From Peptoanaerobacter stomatis (GTDB lineage Bacteria > Bacillota > Clostridia > Peptostreptococcales > Filifactoraceae), in NCBI RefSeq assembly GCF_000238095.2, contig NZ_JH815225.1:1598419-1662418 (forward strand): DNA of 64,000 bases, given 5' to 3'. The notes beneath the pieces were generated by a model, which had not been told where the DNA came from, searched no databases, and worked only from the letters and a program-made list of their open reading frames with translations. The stretch's first letter is position 1. Each line of letters starts with the position of its first letter. Shown piece after piece: positions 3,662-25,616 of the stretch. Made by a program: the position numbers and the translations under genes.

Positions 3662-3937
3662 TTATACGTCAAATTCTCTTTCAAACACGCTTTCTTCTTC
3701 TACATCTTGTATTGATGCACCTGTATATAATGTTATTGTATCTTTTATTGTGTCCTTTACTCCGTCTATGTCGTAACGTGCGTCACTTGCTCTTTTTTTA
3801 ATTGTTTTTTTTGTATCGTCGGCTTTTTCACTAAGTTCCACTCTAAGTTCTTTACCGCTTTTTGGAGCTATTAAAACTCCAATTATAACACCAAAAAATA
3901 ATCCGAATACAAATGTTAAAAACGGGCATCTTCTCAT
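3662..3937 (-). CDS. YtxH-like general stress protein
   Basis: 91 residues. A membrane helix with small-residue spacing (FGLFFGVIIGVLIAPKSGKE) is the YtxH family signature, followed by a charged, Lys/Asp-rich helical tail. Exact function is unknown; in Bacillus the family is stress-induced. It is the first gene of the ytxH-ytxG-rsbV-rsbW-sigma operon. The 240-base gap upstream contains a TGTATAAT extended -10 on the minus strand but no clear -35. Confidence 0.75.
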   Translation of the reverse strand: MRRCPFLTFVFGLFFGVIIGVLIAPKSGKELRVELSEKADDTKKTIKKRASDARYDIDGVKDTIKDTITLYTGASIQDVEEESVFEREFDV

Positions 3938-4177
3938 AGCTGTTCTCCTTTACTTAAATTTGTTTCAAAATGTATTTTTATTATTGTATTTTTTATTACA
4001 AAGTTATTATACAATATTTTATTTGAATTCTCCATTTTTTTATTTTACTATAAAACTGTTACTACATTGCAAAAAATGTTTAAAAGCAATTTATTATTTT
4101 TTATCATAATAACTTAAAATAAATGACTTTACATTATTTTTTTACTGAAAATATCAAAATAAATATCATGAATAAAA

Positions 4178-16177: not shown

Positions 16178-18067
16178 TTATAAATCTTTTTTATCCCTCA
16201 TAGATTGAAGATATATTAGTAATACTGATATATCTGATGGAGATACTCCTGATATTCTTGATGCTTGCCCGATATTTATCGGTTTTATCTTGTTTAATTT
16301 TTGTCTTGCTTCCAATCTTAAGCCTTTTATGTTTTCATAGTCAAGCTTGTCTGAAAGTTTTTTATTTTCTAATTTTACAAAATTTTCTACTTGTAATTTT
16401 TGCTTTTTAATATATCCTTCGTATTTAGACTCTATTTCACATCTTTTTTTTACCTCCTCACTCAACAACTTATTTCCCAAATTCATTTCTTCCAATAGTG
16501 TATATGTTACTTTAGGTCTTTTTAAAAGCTCATAAAGACTTATTTGACCTAATAAATCACTCTCACCTACAGATGATAATTTTTCATTTATTTCATCAGG
16601 TTTAACTTTTTGAGTTTTCAATCTCTGCAATTCTTCATCTATATCTTTATATTTTTGGATAAATTTATTATATCTTTTATCGTCAACCAATCCGTAATAT
16701 CTTCCAAATTCGGTCAATCTTTCATCTGCATTGTCCTGTCTTAAAAGTAATCTATATTCAGCTCTTGAAGTCATTATTCTATATGGTTCATTAGTTCCTT
16801 TTGTTACCAAATCGTCTATCAGAACTCCTATATAGCTGTTGTCTCTTGTGAGTATAAATTCATTTTTTCCCTGAATTTTTGCAGATGCATTTATACCTGC
16901 TACCAAACCTTGTGCAGCGGCTTCTTCATAACCGCTTGTAGAGTTCATCTGACCTGCAAAATAAAGCCCTTGAATTTTTTTTGTTTCAAGTGTGGGTTTT
17001 AATATAAGAGGATCTATACAATCATATTCTATGGCATATGCAGGACGCATCATCTTACAATTTTCAAGTCCCGCAACTGTTTGATACATCTCAAGCTGTA
17101 TTTCATAGGCTAATGATGAAGAAAATCCTTGTATATAATATTCTTTAGTATCCATCCCTTCAGGCTCAACAAAAAATTGATGAGAAGTCTTGTCTGCAAA
17201 TCTTGTGACTTTATCTTCTATAGAAGGACAATATCTCGCCCCTGCCACTGCATCCATATCTCCTCTAAAAAGTGATGAACGTTTCAAATTATTTTTTATT
17301 ATCTCATGAGTTTTATCGTTAGTTCTTGTTAAATAACAACTTACTTTGTTTGTGCCTATATCTTCGCCTTCATTTAAAAATGACATCGGCACTATTTTTT
17401 CATCTCCGTCTTGAATACTCATCTTACTGAAATCTATTGAATCTTTGTGTATTCTTGCAGGTGTACCTGTTTTAAATTTTCTAAGCTCTATACCTAATTT
17501 TTCTATACTTTCACTTAAACCGTAAGCTCCGTTTAATCCAAGAGGACCTGATTTAAAATTTACTTCTCCTATATAGACCTTTGAATCCAAATATACTCCG
17601 GTACATATTATAACAGCTTTAGCAGTATATTTTGCTCCTAATTTTGTAACAACACCTGTTATTTTATTGTCATCAGATAAAAGTTCTATGACTTCATCCA
17701 TTTTTATATCTAAATTTATTTGATCTTCTAAAGTTTTTTTCATATGAATGTGATATTGTTCTTTGTCAGACTGAACTCTTAAAGAGTGTACTGCAGGACC
17801 TTTTGAAGTATTAAGCATTCTGCTTTGTATAAAAGTGGCATCAGCACTTATACCCATTTGTCCGCCAAGTGCATCTAATTCTCTAACAAGATGCCCTTTA
17901 CCTGTGCCTCCTATAGAAGGATTGCATGGTAGATATCCTATTGCCTCTAAAGAGAGTGTTATGACAAGAGTTTTTAGTCCCATCCTTGCTGATGCAAGTG
18001 AGGCCTCACAGCCTGCATGACCTGCTCCTACAACTATTACGTCATAATCTCCTGCGTTAAATATCAT
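16178..18067 (-). CDS. mnmG: tRNA 5-carboxymethylaminomethyluridine-34 synthase subunit MnmG (GidA)
   Basis: 629 residues, full length. An FAD-binding Rossmann start ([19 protein letters not shown]), [20 protein letters not shown] and [19 protein letters not shown] are family signatures, with a helical C-terminal MnmE/tRNA-binding region. With MnmE it modifies the wobble uridine of tRNAs. GAGGAG lies 9 bases before the ATG. It sits on the opposite replication arm from rpmH-jag, and mnmE is absent from the window, so the usual mnmE-mnmG linkage is broken here. Confidence 0.96.
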
Positions 18068-18838
18068 TAAATTGTCTCCTCAATAAATTATAATTTATCG
18101 AAATTTGTCCTAAAACTGTACATTTACATCGTTAGACTTAATATATCTTTCACTTATATGTAGTTTCAACACACACATTTTAGATATATTTGTCCGTCTT
18201 GCTCCATATGTTTTATAGAACAAATTTTACTCAAACAGCAGTTAATGAAGTACTATAGTAATAAAAAATAATCAAAATATTTTTATAAATTACTATAATT
18301 TACATTATTTTAATACTAAGCTGTTTAGTTTTAATTCACCAAAAAATATCCTTTAATTTATATTCAAAAATATAGTATAAATTTTAATTTAAACTTTGGA
18401 TAAATATACAGGTAAACTAAAGAGCGTACTTATTGTACATAACTAAGACTTGATATGAAGTCTAACGAAATTAGGTAAAGCTATAAATTAAAATTTATAT
18501 CTTCAATGAACAAAAAATCATATTATGAAATATTTAATATAATACTAATATGCTAATATTTTCGTGAAGATTATACCCATATTTTTTTAAAATAAACAAG
18601 ATAATATTTTTGCAAATATTATCTTTAAAAGTAATAACAAATTTATTTAAAATTATGATTTAAAAGTAAAAGTTTTATTTGAAAAATTAGTACTTTTTTT
18701 AAAGATTATTCTGTCTTATTTAATATATAATAAGTATAAAGTCTTTTATAAAAATATAAAATATATTTATACTATTATCTATTAAACATATATTTCTTTA
18801 ATTATTTGAAAATATCTTAATTTTAATAGTATTTAGTA
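18068..18838. other. 771-base gene-free region with repeats, upstream of mnmG
   Basis: No ORF of note. It holds a 29-base sequence at 18206-18234 (starts ATATGTTTTATAGAAC) that recurs exactly at 30600-30628, next to a family 1 repeat. It also holds family 1 copy C (18376-18499) and AT-rich filler with T/A runs. Confidence 0.6.
18376..18499 (-). repeat. MITE-like element, family 1, copy C
   Basis: 124 bases with perfect 16-base terminal inverted repeats TATAAATTTTAATTTA (18376-18391) and TAAATTAAAATTTATA (18484-18499). Read on the minus strand, its interior (CGTTAGACTTCATATCAAGT, AGTACGCTC) matches the plus-strand copies at 30477-30597 and 31247-31379. Noncoding. Confidence 0.85.
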
Positions 18839-19366
18839 TTAATAAAATATTTTCATTTGATCTAAAATTTCAAATGTTTCTAAATCATATAGTTTTAAAA
18901 CATCATCTTCAAGATATGCAAAAGATTTTATAAAATCTCTCGGTCTTGAAGTTGAGCCCGGATTGAGCAGTATTAAATCTCCTACTTTTTCCATTTTTTT
19001 GACATGTGTATGACCGTATACCAATATTTGACATTTTGCATCAAGAGCTTTTTGTTTATAATGCTCTATAGAATGAACAAAACCGTGAGTTGCAAATATT
19101 TTCAAATTTCCGAACGTGAATATTTTCTCAAAATCATCAATACTCTTATTCATTAGCGTCATACCGTCAAAATAATCTCCGTTGCCCCTTACAAAATATA
19201 TATTTGATAAAGTCTTTATATATTCTGTCAAAAAACAAGGTGAGTTGTAGCCATAAGACAATACATCTCCTGTATGTATTATGGCATCATAATCTTTCAT
19301 AAATGATACAGCTCTTTCAAGAGATTCTTCATCGCCATGTGTATCACTGACAAATCCAATTTTCAT
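18839..19366 (-). CDS. YfcE/MJ0936-type metallophosphoesterase
   Basis: 175 residues, a compact calcineurin-like phosphoesterase. Metal-binding motifs appear in order: SDTHGDEE (about 6-13), HTGDVLSYG (31-39), RGNGDYFDG, FATHGFVHS, and YGHTHVKKME with the HxH ligand pair. Family members hydrolyse phosphodiesters or cyclic nucleotides; the physiological substrate is unknown. It starts 18 bases after dnaN in the same direction with GAGGAG upstream of the ATG, so it is probably cotranscribed with dnaN. Confidence 0.87.
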   Translation of the reverse strand: MKIGFVSDTHGDEESLERAVSFMKDYDAIIHTGDVLSYGYNSPCFLTEYIKTLSNIYFVRGNGDYFDGMTLMNKSIDDFEKIFTFGNLKIFATHGFVHSIEHYKQKALDAKCQILVYGHTHVKKMEKVGDLILLNPGSTSRPRDFIKSFAYLEDDVLKLYDLETFEILDQMKIFY

Positions 19367-19384
19367 AAAAATCTCCTCATATAA

Positions 19385-20485
19385 CTATCTTATTCTTACA
19401 GGTAACACTACATTTTTGTAATCTTCATTGCTTTCAGGAGTTATTGTGCATGGACTTACACTGTTTATTACATTCATAATCAAATATTCATCATCTATAT
19501 ATTTCATTGCATCCAATATATAATCACAGTTAAATGCTATTGTAAAGTTTTCTCCGTTCAACTCGATGTCAACTATTTCATTCGCATCTCCTATTTGATC
19601 ATTTCTTGAGGTTATATTCATCATAAAATCTTTTGATTCAAATTTTATGAGTTTGTTATTTGATAAAAGCGATACTCTTTCCACTGCTGATTTTAAGTCG
19701 GACAATTTTATCTTCGCAGTTGAAGTAGGTGCCTGAGGTATTATAGATTCATAATCTAAAAAATTTCCTACTATAAGATTGCTTGTAATTGTTGTATTAT
19801 CTATAATTATGCAGATATGCTTATCATCATATGAAAATTTTATACTTTCTTGAGAATCTTCTATTGTTTTAGCGATATCTATTAAAGTGTTACCTTTTAA
19901 TATCAATTTTTTTTCATCAAATGACGATTCTTCAAATCTTTTCTTCATAAAGCTGAACCTGAAACCGTCTATTGAAAACATAACAAATTCATCTTTTTCT
20001 ACTTTAAAAAAGTGTGACATATAAACCGGATTAGGATTGTTATTAGATATTGCATATCCTGTTTTTAAAACCAAATCTTTAAAATCTTGTGCATCAAGCC
20101 TTACAAATGTTCTTTCATCTATATATGCAGGCATTGGAAAATCATCACATTTTAAATATTTGATATTAAATTTTGAATTTTTACATCTGAGTTCAATAAA
20201 ATCAGTATCTTCAATACTTTGAAAATGTATAGTGTCATTAGGCATTTTTCTTATTATATCAGAAATTATCTTAGCCTCTATTACTATCTTACCACCTTCA
20301 TATACTTCGCAAGGTACACTTGTTTGTATACCTAATTCAAGGTTGTTTGTAGTAAGAACGAGATTGTTGTCTTCTATTTCAAAATATATACCTTTTAATA
20401 TTTCCATAGTAGTTTTTGTAGATACAGCTTTTGCAACTATATTAATAGCTTTTGAAAGTTGCGTTTGATTTATTTTAAACTTCAT
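19385..20485 (-). CDS. dnaN: DNA polymerase III beta sliding clamp
   Basis: 366 residues, the typical length. Three successive clamp folds; N terminus MKFKINQTQLSKAINIVAKAV and a C-terminal PVRIR, close to the canonical PMR(I/L) ending of beta clamps. It encircles DNA and tethers polymerase III and other factors. It lies downstream of dnaA on the same strand across a 608-base gap that carries origin elements. Confidence 0.96.
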   Translation of the reverse strand: MKFKINQTQLSKAINIVAKAVSTKTTMEILKGIYFEIEDNNLVLTTNNLELGIQTSVPCEVYEGGKIVIEAKIISDIIRKMPNDTIHFQSIEDTDFIELRCKNSKFNIKYLKCDDFPMPAYIDERTFVRLDAQDFKDLVLKTGYAISNNNPNPVYMSHFFKVEKDEFVMFSIDGFRFSFMKKRFEESSFDEKKLILKGNTLIDIAKTIEDSQESIKFSYDDKHICIIIDNTTITSNLIVGNFLDYESIIPQAPTSTAKIKLSDLKSAVERVSLLSNNKLIKFESKDFMMNITSRNDQIGDANEIVDIELNGENFTIAFNCDYILDAMKYIDDEYLIMNVINSVSPCTITPESNEDYKNVVLPVRIR

Positions 20486-20859
20486 AATATCCTCTTTCCG
20501 CTTTTTTTGTAATCAATATAGAAATTTTTATTTATACTGAAAAACAATTAAATAGCCATGTAATTACACTATAACAAAATTATTTATAATAAATAAAATA
20601 TTATAAAGTAATTCAATATAAAATACTTGAACTATAAATGATTATTAGTATTAAAATATTATTTATATATTTTTCTTTATTATTATTTTTTTGATATATA
20701 TTTTTATAAAATCATTGTAATCTTTCTATAATTAATGATTTGTAGTCATATATAATATAAATAAATGAAAATAATTTGTATTTTTGATATAGTTTTGAAT
20801 AAATAGTTATTAAATTTCTATATAATTGTTGCTATAAATAAGTTATAAACTTATTGTAT

Positions 20860-21090
20860 GATTTTATATTGTTTATTGGTTCTTATTTAGTTAGTTTACT
20901 TTGTAGTTTTGGTGTTTTTTGTTTTAAAAATATAAAAAAATATTTAAAATTTTAGTAGTAATATTAGTAGTAGCTGTGAATATGTGGATAAGTCTGTGTA
21001 TTACTTGAAAAAATTAATTTTTTTTATTTAATAATGTTGTTGATAACCTATGAATAAATATTTAATAACTATTAAGTTATCAACATTTAT
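20860..21090. other. oriC: Replication origin, dnaA-dnaN part: unwinding region
   Basis: DnaA boxes lie at 20983-20991 (TGTGGATAA, perfect), 21038-21046 (TGTTGATAA) and 21077-21085 (TTATCAACA). Beyond the perfect box on the dnaN side are seven triplets at 20953-20973: TAG TAG TAA TAT TAG TAG TAG. This is the DnaA-trio pattern described in Bacillus subtilis. An extremely AT-rich tract (about 20860-20952) follows, as expected for the duplex-unwinding element. The order of box, trios and AT tract matches a basal unwinding system. Confidence 0.8.
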
Positions 21091-21093
21091 AAA

Positions 21094-22428
21094 TCAATCT
21101 TTTAATATTGCTATAATCTTGTCTATTTTAACATCTATTTTATCTGTTTTTTTCTCAATATCATCTTTAATTTTATCACAGGCATGCATAACAGTTGTAT
21201 GGTCTCTGCCTCCAAATTCTTCTCCTATTTTCGGAAGTGATAAATTAGTGAGCTCTCTTGATAGATACATTGCTATCTGTCTTGGATATGCTATGTTTTT
21301 AGGTCTTGCTTTTGATGATAAATCATCTATTTTTATATTAAATTCTTTTGCAACTACCTGTTTTATATAATCTATATTGAGTTCTTTTGTCTCTTTGTTT
21401 TTTAACATATCTTTTAATACTTCGGTAGCCATATCGTATGTTATAGGAGTTTGCATCATTTTTGAATAGCTCCATACTTTATTTAATGAGCCTTCGAGTT
21501 CTCTTATATTGGATTTTATATTTTTGGCTATCAGTATCAAAACATCATCTGATATATCTCTTTGGTCTATTTCACATTTTTTCTTTAATATTGCTACTCT
21601 TGTTTCAAAATCAGGAGCTTGTATGTCTATAGGAACTCCGCTTTCAAATCTTGAACGAAGTCTGTCTTCAAGTGTAACGAGCTCTTGTGGAGGTCTATCA
21701 CTTGAGATTATTATTTGTTTGTTATTTGAATGTAATTCGTTAAAAGTATGGAAAAATTCTTCTTGAGTTGCCTCTTTACCTTCAATGAACTGTATATCAT
21801 CTATTAAAAGAACATCTAATGAGCGATATTTTTTTCTGAACTCTTCATTATTTTTTTCTTTTATCGAATTTATAAGTTCATTTGTAAATTTTTCGGATGT
21901 TACATAAGCTATTTTGTAATCGCTGTTTTTTTCTTTCAATCTGTTCGCTATTGCGTGCATTAAGTGAGTTTTTCCAAGTCCTACACCACCATACAAGAAA
22001 AGAGGATTGTGTGCATCTTTTGTTACTTCAAATGAAGGATGTTCAGCTACAGATACACATACAGCATGTGCAAATTTATTTGAGTTTCCTATTACAAAAG
22101 AGTCAAATGTATATTTTGCAAGTATATTATCCGAATTTTTTACAGGTGGATTTATTATTTTTTTAATCTCGGAATCGTCTAATATAGGCTGTACAGTTAC
22201 ATTATTTATATTTAATTCATTTTTGATTATAGAATTTATTTTTTCGATATTTTGTTTTATATGTTCAAGAATAAAGGAATTTTCACATTTTATAAATAAA
22301 GTGTTATTGTAAAATTCGTGCATATAAGATGCTTTATCTGAAAAAAAAGTATTTATATAAGTTGAATTTTCATTTTCTTTCAGATAATTTAATACTTTTT
22401 TCCATATTATCAAACCATCAGTTTCCAT
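21094..22428 (-). CDS. dnaA: Chromosomal replication initiator DnaA
   Basis: 444 residues. Domain I is at about 1-80, with a short linker. The AAA+ domain III has Walker [14 protein letters not shown] and Walker B LLIDDIQF, plus the initiator-specific motif. Domain IV has the DnaA-box-binding signature [15 protein letters not shown]. It binds origin boxes and melts the duplex. DnaA boxes on both sides of the gene suggest autoregulation and origin function. GAGGTTAATAAA precedes the ATG. Confidence 0.97.
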
Positions 22429-22862
22429 TTTATTAACCTCAAGTATAAAAAATTTGTGTATAAGACAAAAAAAACTGTTAATAAAATTTTCAAAAAAATA
22501 ATTATCAACAATTTGTTTTTAAATTTATACACATTATCAACAATATAATAATAACATTTTGTGGATAAATACACAAAAAATATAAAGTTATCCACAAACT
22601 TATTAACAATATGTTAATAAGTGGATAAAATTTATAAACATCTTAACAGTTTTTTTGGTATAGATAATATATCAAATATAACAAAAAGTTTCAATAAAAA
22701 AATTTTAAAAAGTGTTTTTATTACTCACTTTTTTAGCTAAAAAAAAAATATTTTTATGAAAAAATTTGAAAAAAATTACAATATGTAGTAAATTTTTATC
22801 TGTGGATAACTATATTTTGATTAGATATAAAAAAATAATAAAATAAAAAAATTAAAAAGAAT
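22429..22862. other. oriC: Replication origin, upstream DnaA-box cluster
   Basis: Perfect boxes are at 22560-22568 (TGTGGATAA), 22588-22596 (TTATCCACA) and 22801-22809 (TGTGGATAA). One-mismatch boxes are at 22502-22510 and 22534-22542 (TTATCAACA) and at 22620-22628 (AGTGGATAA). The stretch is noncoding, very AT-rich and lies between divergent dnaA and rpmH. Together with the dnaA-dnaN cluster this makes a bipartite origin like that of Bacillus. Confidence 0.85.
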
Positions 22863-22891
22863 TTGACAAATCGCCCTACAAACCGTATAAT
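22863..22891 (+). promoter_or_regulatory. Consensus promoter for rpmH-rnpA-yidD-yidC-jag
   Basis: TTGACA (22863-22868), a 17-base spacer, then TATAAT (22886-22891): a perfect vegetative promoter. Predicted transcription start is near 22898, leaving a leader of about 240 bases before rpmH. Confidence 0.88.
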
Positions 22892-22897
22892 ATTGCT

Positions 22898-23140
22898 ATC
22901 ATTTTATGTGGTTTTAATATTAAAACCTGACAATTACATCATATACTTGTAATATACTAATTTTGAGGCGGTTTTTACTATAATATATGATTAGTAATAT
23001 TTATTGAATTTGGGATGTATTTATCAAGAATTTTATTGATTGTAGGAAGATGACCGAATCCTTTGAGGGATTTTTTTAATGTCTGAATACATCCGTTAAG
23101 ATTAAAACTAACAAAACAGAACAGTGAAAGGCGGTGCAAC
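22898..23140 (+). promoter_or_regulatory. Long structured 5' leader of the rpmH operon
   Basis: An 18-base perfect palindrome GGTTTTAATATTAAAACC (22910-22927) sits near the predicted RNA 5' end. Further on, GGATGTAT (23013-23020) can pair with ATACATCC (23087-23094). This closes a multi-branch structure containing ATCAA/TTGAT (23023-23040) and a terminator-like AATCC/GGATT hairpin with seven T's (23057-23077). Possible attenuator for ribosomal protein L34. It matches no riboswitch class I recognise. Confidence 0.45.
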
Positions 23141-23278
23141 ATGAGCAAAAGAACTTACCAACCTAAAAAAAGACAAAGAAGTAAAGAACATGGTTTTAGA
23201 AAAAGAATGAGAACTCCGGGCGGAAGAAATGTAATAAAAAATAGAAGAGCTAAAGGTAGAAAAAGACTTTCAGCATAA
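23141..23278 (+). CDS. rpmH: 50S ribosomal protein L34
   Basis: 45 residues, highly basic. It starts [18 protein letters not shown] and ends KGRKRLSA, the typical L34 pattern with [19 protein letters not shown] between. AAAGGCGGTG precedes the ATG. First gene of the operon on the right side of the origin, followed by a GC-containing hairpin and rnpA. Confidence 0.97.
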
Positions 23279-23319
23279 TTGAGAATAAACATAAATATGT
23301 TATTCGGATGTTTAAAAAT

Positions 23320-23356
23320 AAAGCCACTTTAATCTACATTAAGGTGGCTTGTTTTA
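23320..23356 (+). terminator. Attenuating hairpin between rpmH and rnpA
   Basis: Hairpin AAGCCACTTTAAT/ATTAAGGTGGCTT (one G-U pair) followed by GTTTT. A weak T-run suggests partial termination, which would give more L34 than RNase P protein mRNA. Confidence 0.6.
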
Positions 23357-23380
23357 GCCTCAATAGGAGTTATTTTTGTT

Positions 23381-23710
23381 ATGAATTTTGACATGATAAG
23401 AAAAAAAGAAGATTTTAAAAAAATATATACAAGAGGAAAGTCATTTGCCAATAAAAAATTGGTCATATACTATATGAAAAATAATACCGATGATTTAAAA
23501 ATAGGTATAAGCATATCAAGAAAAGTAGGTAAAGCAGTAGTTAGAAATCATCTCAGAAGACTTATAAAAGAAAATATCAGATTGATGAAAGATTTGAAAA
23601 GCGGATATAGTATTATTTTTTTGGCAAGAATAGGCTCAGATGACCTTGATTATTATTCTATGAGAAGTTCCATAAGACATGTATTAAAAAAGACAGATAT
23701 GCTTGTGTAA
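23381..23710 (+). CDS. rnpA: Ribonuclease P protein component
   Basis: 109 residues. It begins with the FDMIRKKEDFKKIYTRGKS pattern. The RNR signature appears as SRKVGKAVVRNHLRRLIKE, the RNA-contacting helix. It assists the catalytic RNA in trimming tRNA 5' leaders. The standard position after rpmH supports the call. GGAG lies 11 bases before the ATG; the ATG five codons in is a possible alternative start. Confidence 0.94.
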   Translation: MNFDMIRKKEDFKKIYTRGKSFANKKLVIYYMKNNTDDLKIGISISRKVGKAVVRNHLRRLIKENIRLMKDLKSGYSIIFLARIGSDDLDYYSMRSSIRHVLKKTDMLV

Positions 23711-23767
23711 AACGGAATTTATATTTTTTTATATTTTATAATGATAAAAAGATGAAGAGATGAGTAT

Positions 23768-23977
23768 ATGTCAGAAATTATGATGAAGATAATAAGATTT
23801 TATCAAAAGTATATATCGCCTATGAAAAGACCATGTTGCAGATTTTATCCGACTTGTTCGGCTTATTGTTTATCTGCATATAAAAAATACGGTTTTTTTA
23901 AAGGCAGTTTTTTAAGTATATGGAGAATATTAAGGTGTAATCCGTTTAACAAAGGCGGATATGACCCTTTGAAATAA
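23768..23977 (+). CDS. yidD: Membrane protein insertion efficiency factor YidD
   Basis: 69 residues. It contains the conserved [20 protein letters not shown] start (20 residues), [16 protein letters not shown] and [12 protein letters not shown], with the family cysteines. A small amphipathic membrane-associated protein that assists YidC-dependent insertion. It lies between rnpA and yidC as in most bacteria. Confidence 0.93.
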
Positions 23978-24025
23978 ATTGATACTAAACTGTTGCAGTT
24001 TATATGGTATTCACAGGAGGAAGTT

Positions 24026-24793
24026 TTGAATCAGATATCAATATGGTTTGGGCATTTACTTAAACTTTTTTATGATATGAGCAATAATTATGCTCTTTCA
24101 ATAATTTTATTTACAATAGTTACAAAATTTATACTTTTACCACTTACATTTTCACAAATGCGTTCTATGAATGCTATGAAAACTATACAGCCGAAAGTAG
24201 ACGAAATAAATAAAAAATATAAGGGTAATCCGCAAAAACAGAGTGAAAAATTATCACAATTATATAAAGAAAACGGAGTAAATCCTGCAGCAGGATGTTT
24301 ACCTTTGCTTATACAATTTCCTATATTGATAGCTATGTACAGAGTTGTAAGAGAACCTATAAAATATGTGTTTTTGAATGAAACTGCTTATAATCTTGTG
24401 GATAAAGGATTTTTCTGGATAAAATCACTTGAAGTTCCTGATGTCATAGCTATACAAGGTATAAATTTACCATATATATTACCTGTATTATCAGCACTTT
24501 TCACATATGTACAAATGCAGATGTCTATGAGCAGATCATCATCATCTTCTTCTTCAAATGCGACAGCAGAAGGTATGAACAAGACGATGACATATATGAT
24601 GCCTCTTATGATGCTTATATGGGGTATTAATTTACCGGCTGGTCTTATACTTTACTGGGCAACAGGAACATTGGTACAGATTTTACAACAATATTTAATA
24701 GGTAAGTATGAATATCATATGAATTTTAGAGATGATGATAGATCAAACAAAAGAGATAGCCAAGCTTCTATAAAAAAGAAAAATAACAGATAA
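24026..24793 (+). CDS. yidC: Membrane protein insertase YidC/OxaA/SpoIIIJ
   Basis: About 256 residues from a TTG at 24026, chosen because CAGGAGGAAG lies 4 bases upstream; the open frame extends 11 codons further. Five predicted membrane segments: near 8-45, about 90-112, about 150-170, about 190-215 and a late segment. FSQMRSMNAMKTIQPKVDEI is the cytoplasmic coiled hairpin. The hydrophilic-groove region lies near GCLPLLIQFPILIAMYRV. The basic C-terminal tail can bind ribosomes. No lipobox is seen, unlike SpoIIIJ of Bacillus. Confidence 0.93.
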   Translation: MNQISIWFGHLLKLFYDMSNNYALSIILFTIVTKFILLPLTFSQMRSMNAMKTIQPKVDEINKKYKGNPQKQSEKLSQLYKENGVNPAAGCLPLLIQFPILIAMYRVVREPIKYVFLNETAYNLVDKGFFWIKSLEVPDVIAIQGINLPYILPVLSALFTYVQMQMSMSRSSSSSSSNATAEGMNKTMTYMMPLMMLIWGINLPAGLILYWATGTLVQILQQYLIGKYEYHMNFRDDDRSNKRDSQASIKKKNNR

Positions 24794-24890
24794 TACAATG
24801 TTGTATATAATATGATTTCTTTAATTATTAGCAAATTGCGTATGAAAATTAATAATATCATTTTATAATGAGATATATAAAGGAGCAATT

Positions 24891-25568
24891 ATGGAATATA
24901 TACAAATAAGCGGAAAAACAAGACAAGAGGCAATAGAAAAAGCTATAGAAAAATTAGGCGTAGATGAAAGTAAGTTGGATATACAAGTTGTAGATGAAGG
25001 CAGTAAGGGTTTTTTGGGAATAGGAGCAAAAGACTATATAATAAAAGTAAAAAAAATAGTTGATAGAGAAGATTTGATAAGAGAATTCTTAGGAAAAGTA
25101 TTTAAGTCTATGGATATAGTATGCGACATAAATATAGTGCAAACTGAGGAAAATACAAGAGTAGAAATAAAAGGTGAAGATGCAGCTATGTTTATAGGCA
25201 AAAGAGGAGAGAGTTTGGACTCATTACAAATGCTTACAAATATCGTAGTAAGTAAAGCTCTTGATTCACATGAAAAGATAATACTCGACATAGAAAATTA
25301 TAGAGAAAAAAGAGAAAAATCACTCATAGCATATGCTAAAAAAATGGCAAAAAAAGTAATATTCCAAAGACGAAATATAAAATTGGAGCCTATGAATCCA
25401 TATGAAAGAAGAGTTATACACTATGCTCTTCAAGATGACAGCAGAATAAATACATTTTCTGAAGGAGAAGAACCTAACAGAAGAATAGTATTATCATTGA
25501 AAAAAGGCGGATTCAATCACAATAGAGGAAGATATTCCAACAGACATGAAAATACAGAAGAAGAATAA
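24891..25568 (+). CDS. jag: Jag/KhpB (EloR-type) RNA-binding protein
   Basis: 225 residues. The Jag N-domain (about 1-50) includes GSKGFLGIGAKDY. A KH domain (about 80-150) contains MFIGKRGESLDSLQ, and an R3H domain ends with NPYERRVIHYALQDD. It binds RNA and, in related Firmicutes, affects cell elongation and division with KhpA. AAAGGAG precedes the ATG. Last gene of the rpmH operon, followed by a strong terminator; mnmE would be the usual next gene and is missing here. Confidence 0.93.
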   Translation: MEYIQISGKTRQEAIEKAIEKLGVDESKLDIQVVDEGSKGFLGIGAKDYIIKVKKIVDREDLIREFLGKVFKSMDIVCDINIVQTEENTRVEIKGEDAAMFIGKRGESLDSLQMLTNIVVSKALDSHEKIILDIENYREKREKSLIAYAKKMAKKVIFQRRNIKLEPMNPYERRVIHYALQDDSRINTFSEGEEPNRRIVLSLKKGGFNHNRGRYSNRHENTEEE

Positions 25569-25578
25569 AAATAAATAT

Positions 25579-25616
25579 AAAAGTACCCTGCTCATTATTA
25601 AGTAGGGTACTTTTTG
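25579..25616 (+). terminator. Terminator of the rpmH-jag operon
   Basis: Hairpin AAAAGTACCCT/AGGGTACTTTTT with a 14-base loop and a T-tract, 11 bases past the jag stop codon. Confidence 0.88.

Follow-up and report, generated by a model that had tools for sequence, protein, structure and literature searches.

A DnaA-box and DnaA-trio unit at the probable bipartite chromosomal origin of Peptoanaerobacter stomatis

Introduction

Where does replication of the Peptoanaerobacter stomatis chromosome begin, and does the dnaA locus carry an opening unit of the kind described for Bacillus subtilis? In the model put forward in PMC6669920 and PMC8287927, box-bound DnaA seeds an oligomer on DnaA-trios, and this oligomer separates the two strands by stretching the one that carries the trios. 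According to PMC8287927, 1755 of 2070 bacterial origins are predicted to have a basal unwinding system (BUS), and DnaA-trios are labelled automatically by Ori-Finder 2022 (PMC10225481). Here, a stretch of 64,000 nucleotides (the window) was analyzed together with samples of the same genome and with the corresponding loci of relatives. The dnaA locus is almost certainly the chromosomal replication origin, a bipartite Bacillota-type oriC that would open through a box-trio unit.

Results

Gene layout and DnaA-box clusters

The dnaA product is complete, with Walker A/B, FGGRDH and DHTTVMHA motifs. Both dnaA and dnaN lie on the minus strand, and rnpA and jag lie on the plus strand beyond rpmH (Table 1); gene directions therefore diverge in the dnaA-rpmH gap. 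The original prediction had set this divergence at the trio site, which was wrong.

Table 1. Features of the dnaA locus, in window coordinates.
Feature	Position	Strand	Remarks
dnaN	19385-20485	-	TIGR00663, E=3.2e-71
oriC2-like dnaA-dnaN intergenic region	20486-21093		608 bp, 85% A+T
A/T-only tract, probable DNA unwinding element	20922-20952		31 bp, on the dnaN side of the trios
Seven DnaA-trios, TAG TAG TAA TAT TAG TAG TAG	20953-20973	+	3'-GAT-5' type, read directly
TAGC	20971-20974	+	stands where 23 of 26 in-register relatives have a GC-rich tetramer
Weaker, trio-proximal DnaA-box ATATTCACA	20975-20983	-	box 7-like; reads TGTGAATAT on +
Perfect DnaA-box TTATCCACA	20983-20991	-	box 6-like; reads TGTGGATAA on +
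Four more one-mismatch DnaA-boxes	20995-21085		20995, 21038 and 21049 on -; 21077 on +
dnaA	21094-22428	-	TIGR00362, E=7.2e-152
oriC1-like dnaA-rpmH intergenic region	22429-23140		14 DnaA-boxes, 5 perfect
rpmH	about 23141-23278	+	identified by eye

DnaA-boxes were called by the rule TTWTNCACA with at most one mismatch, and their numbers were compared with 500 dinucleotide shuffles. Boxes cluster on both sides of dnaA, as had been proposed and as a bipartite oriC requires, with 14 upstream and 7 downstream. For the upstream gap, neither the total nor the number of perfect boxes was reached by any of the 500 shuffles. The downstream total and its single perfect box were reached by 23/500 and 67/500 shuffles, respectively, so that, by itself, this cluster exceeds by only a modest margin what chance would give in DNA so rich in A+T.

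The dnaA-rpmH gap also holds a sigma-70-type promoter on the plus strand (22863-22891) that matches TTGACA-17-TATAAT at 12/12 positions and presumably drives rpmH. Between 20400 and 23400, a scan found 31 promoter-like sites, not clearly above the 25.7 (sd 5.2) of shuffles, and no terminator-like site; an Rfam search of 18000-25600 at gathering scores gave no match.

GC skew

Skew was computed for 22 stretches of contig C1, one of the three contigs of the assembly (19 of them sampled, three from the window), and for one stretch of contig C2, a coverage of 20 sampled stretches plus the window. All nine C1 stretches with starts within 1-300,001 or from 1.621 Mb onward are skew-positive (weakest +0.037, at 1.642 Mb), and 12 of the 13 starting at 0.4-1.598 Mb are skew-negative, the other being weakly positive (+0.046, at 0.6 Mb); the C2 stretch is at -0.055. 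Among the sampled C1 stretches, the skew makes a large turn from minus to plus at this locus only, and the cumulative G-C minimum of the window falls at 20626. The prediction had named a skew minimum elsewhere as evidence against an origin here, and in this sampling the turn is at the predicted place. Replication could instead start at another site, with the dnaA locus retaining only the remains of a former origin, a reading for which the weakly positive sample at 0.6 Mb and the sampled nature of the skew leave a little room. The position of the single large turn speaks against it, as does the flip of gene strands at the dnaA-rpmH gap, and we give it next to no probability.

The box-trio unit

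The trio run and the perfect box were predicted exactly to the base, and the AT-rich tract toward dnaN had been predicted as well. They stand in the order box, trios, AT-rich tract, as in Bacillus subtilis, with a function that would be the same by analogy. Under the rules of PMC8287927, a box with at most two mismatches lies 0-16 bp from at least three in-register NAN triplets, mostly of the 3'-GAT-5' type; here, a perfect box lies 9 bp from seven triplets, five of which are TAG. The same rules allow a second, less conserved tandem box, the better one being distal, and ATATTCACA takes this place, overlapping the perfect box by one base and separated from the end of the trio run by a single C at 20974. 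The perfect box would orient DnaA toward the trios. The complement of the trio run reads CTACTACTAATATTACTACTA and contains several TnnT motifs, identified by eye.

To grade such units, a score was given to a box with in-register NAN triplets 0-16 bases before it; this score was devised after the site had been seen and is read against the sense strand, shuffles and genome stretches as controls. The site reaches 10.9, and the best value among 1000 shuffles of the gap, both strands counted, is 7.7, which is also the maximum on either strand of 20 stretches of 20 kb sampled from this genome. A search of the 2.33-Mb genome for the exact pattern TAGTAGTAG-N(1-16)-TGTGGATAA gave a single match. A second trio array in the window was considered and rejected: the next best place, at about 1842 on the minus strand, scores 7.8 with a two-mismatch box, which is the genome level.

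Conservation in relatives

Besides the genome itself, 39 relatives were searched, and the 35 with both dnaA and dnaN in reach were scanned; those left out are G008 (no dnaA match), G005 (no dnaN in the stretch read), and G007 and G022, where the match was weak and confined to a portion of the ATPase domain. A unit scoring at least 6.5 is present on the strand antisense to dnaA in 30/35 scanned relatives, compared with 0/35 on the sense strand; lowering the cut-off to 5 or 4 brings the sense-strand control to 1/35 or 2/35, respectively, with 31 relatives then counted on the antisense strand. Box and trios are thus kept in the dnaA-dnaN gap of most scanned relatives, a comparison that the prediction had proposed as a check. 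The relatives below 6.5 are G014, G019, G025, G033 (5.4) and G036, and all seven family members scanned score 8.8 or more. The strict exact pattern, with three TAG and a perfect box, was found in 9/39 relatives, and its backward control gave one match, in G015. A distant set of 26 named loci (by title treponemes, Helicobacteraceae, candidate phyla and others) was excluded after being seen; 21 of these were scannable and 7/21 reach 6.5 on the antisense strand, so that the rate quoted above is higher than the pooled one (37/56).

These numbers bear on a second alternative, in which the boxes function as origin sites and in the regulation of dnaA, the trio run has arisen by chance from AT-rich sequence, and melting occurs elsewhere, for example at 20649-20708. 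No 60-mer in the window is less stable than this one, which lies about 245 bp from the tract beside the trios toward dnaN, and the region is 85% A+T; the 60-mer beside the trios (20893-20952) ranks 6970 of 63940 in nearest-neighbour instability, which is low, not extreme. However, no shuffle reached the score of the site, and the unit keeps its strand among relatives while the stretch to dnaN varies from 26 to 911 bp. We therefore regard a chance trio run as very improbable and retain the box-trio unit as the probable opening element.

The stretch between the trios and dnaN

The sole oddity of the locus is this stretch itself, which measures 467 bp in the window, 911 bp in congener G001, 43 bp in congener G002 and 26-157 bp in the other 28 relatives reaching the score. 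Correspondingly, the dnaA-dnaN gap is 145-343 bp in 34/36 genomes, the window included in the count (163 bp in G002), and the outliers are the window, at 608 bp, and G001, at 1092 bp. The window sequence from 20486 to 20921 is a long AT-rich stretch with no listed frame over 33 aa. A gene in this spacer was considered and rejected: only two frames of at least 25 aa were found, one of 33 aa that runs into the trios and one that starts beside the end of dnaA and runs antisense into it. When the trio stretch was aligned to the long spacer on the dnaN side, no meaningful similarity emerged.

The gap of G001 (L057, 3334-4426) holds a 56-aa frame (3843-4013), apparently hydrophobic, with a TTGACA-17-TATAAT promoter ahead of it and hairpin-plus-T-run terminators both after it and just after dnaA, the promoter and terminators being noted by eye. 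In G002 (L058), the gene upstream of dnaA resembles, by eye, gyrB in divergent orientation and not rpmH.

In G005, a member of the same family, the exact pattern stands about 500 bp beyond dnaA, and the 3.8 kb read past that gene (L074, 2740-6501) showed no dnaN; misassembly is possible, since this genome is 79% complete and in 260 contigs. By eye, serine-hydrolase-like and sigma-54-activator-like frames occupy the place of dnaN there. Together with the variable distances, G005 suggests that the box-trio unit keeps to dnaA while dnaN moves.

The spacer between boxes and trios

A single register fits 26/35 relatives: trios, four bases, TGTNNNNN, TGTNNNNN. The tetramer has at least three G/C in 23 of these 26, being GGCC or GGGC in 15 of the 23, and reads TACT in the other three, all of one genus. 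In the window, a single base lies between the run of seven trios and the weak box, leaving no distinct GC-rich tetramer; by the register comparison, its place is taken by TAGC, which can be read as the seventh trio. The GC-cluster between boxes and trios that belongs to the manual rule of PMC7561715 is likewise replaced here by TAGC. In PMC8287927 (Pelliciari et al.), the spacer includes the weak box together with a GC gap of about 4 bp and its length peaks at 10-13 bp; the program used there does not require the GC gap.

The 9-base spacer of the original prediction is correct as the length from box to trios, but it consists mostly of the overlapping weak box (the C plus eight of its bases). 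Its suggestion that a spacer without GC is lineage-specific agrees with the GC-rich tetramer of most in-register relatives but goes too far in that GC-poor spacers occur elsewhere: besides the TACT genus, three of the nine out-of-register relatives have four-base spacers before the box that read GTCT (G002), GACT (G024) and TGTA (G035), so that this genome is not alone in having a GC-poor spacer. Conceivably, the GC tetramer became a seventh trio in this lineage (GGGC in congener G001, TAGC here), bringing the trios up against the second box, and the trio-dnaN stretch expanded, although we consider this course of events unlikely. If it were true, DnaA would load the single strand without a GC clamp between its double- and single-strand sites, and the clamp would be dispensable.

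Discussion

The locus presents box clusters on both sides of dnaA, a box-trio unit of defined order and strand that is conserved in most scanned relatives, and the turn of the GC skew. DnaA binding, looping, melting and helicase loading in this organism are proposed by analogy. DnaA would gather on the box clusters on both sides of dnaA, and an ATP-DnaA oligomer would grow from the paired boxes at 20975-20991 onto the single plus strand, along the trios from 20973 down to 20953. This oligomer would stretch the plus strand and open the A/T-only tract toward dnaN, and the opposite strand might then offer its TnnT repeats to a DnaD-type helicase loader. PF07261 (DnaB_2), the family that includes the DnaD/DnaB loaders, has one match in the genome and, among 14 control genomes, matches in B. 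subtilis and L. lactis.

The general picture is unchanged by this case, which is one more origin consistent with the common mechanism proposed for the opening of bacterial chromosomes. It does supply a natural variant without a GC-rich spacer and, with the relatives, a series of trio-to-dnaN stretches of 26-911 bp, both usable to ask which spacings matter.

Compared with the BUS of the B. subtilis incC region, as described in PMC6669920 and PMC8287927, the likeness extends to tandem boxes with the perfect one distal, trios antisense to dnaA, a unit between dnaA and dnaN, an A/T-rich tract beyond it and boxes flanking dnaA. TnnT repeats opposite the trios are a further shared feature; in PMC10201434, they are the DnaD recognition element (DRE), bound by DnaD in B. 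subtilis. Unlike the B. subtilis unit described in these texts, the seven trios here end one base from the weak box, and 467 bp separate them from dnaN.

The comparison with Clostridioides difficile draws on PMC7561715, in which unwinding of the origin was measured, whereas the layout presented here is read from sequence; in those in vitro assays, opening of oriC2 by DnaA required oriC1 as well. The rpmH-dnaA-dnaN context and the AT-rich tract beside the trios are shared with oriC1/oriC2 of that species, and the box counts (14/7 for the oriC1-/oriC2-like regions) compare with 9-19/5-9 in the clostridia of that report under the same box rule. The C. difficile trio run is very similar, its complementary strand including CTACTACTATTACTACTA; it continues with GGTG on the trio strand, whereas here a C is followed by the weak box. 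Apart from such small lineage details, the origin is an ordinary one, built as in its Bacillus and Clostridium relatives: a known system in a new instance, with a small variant of the spacer.
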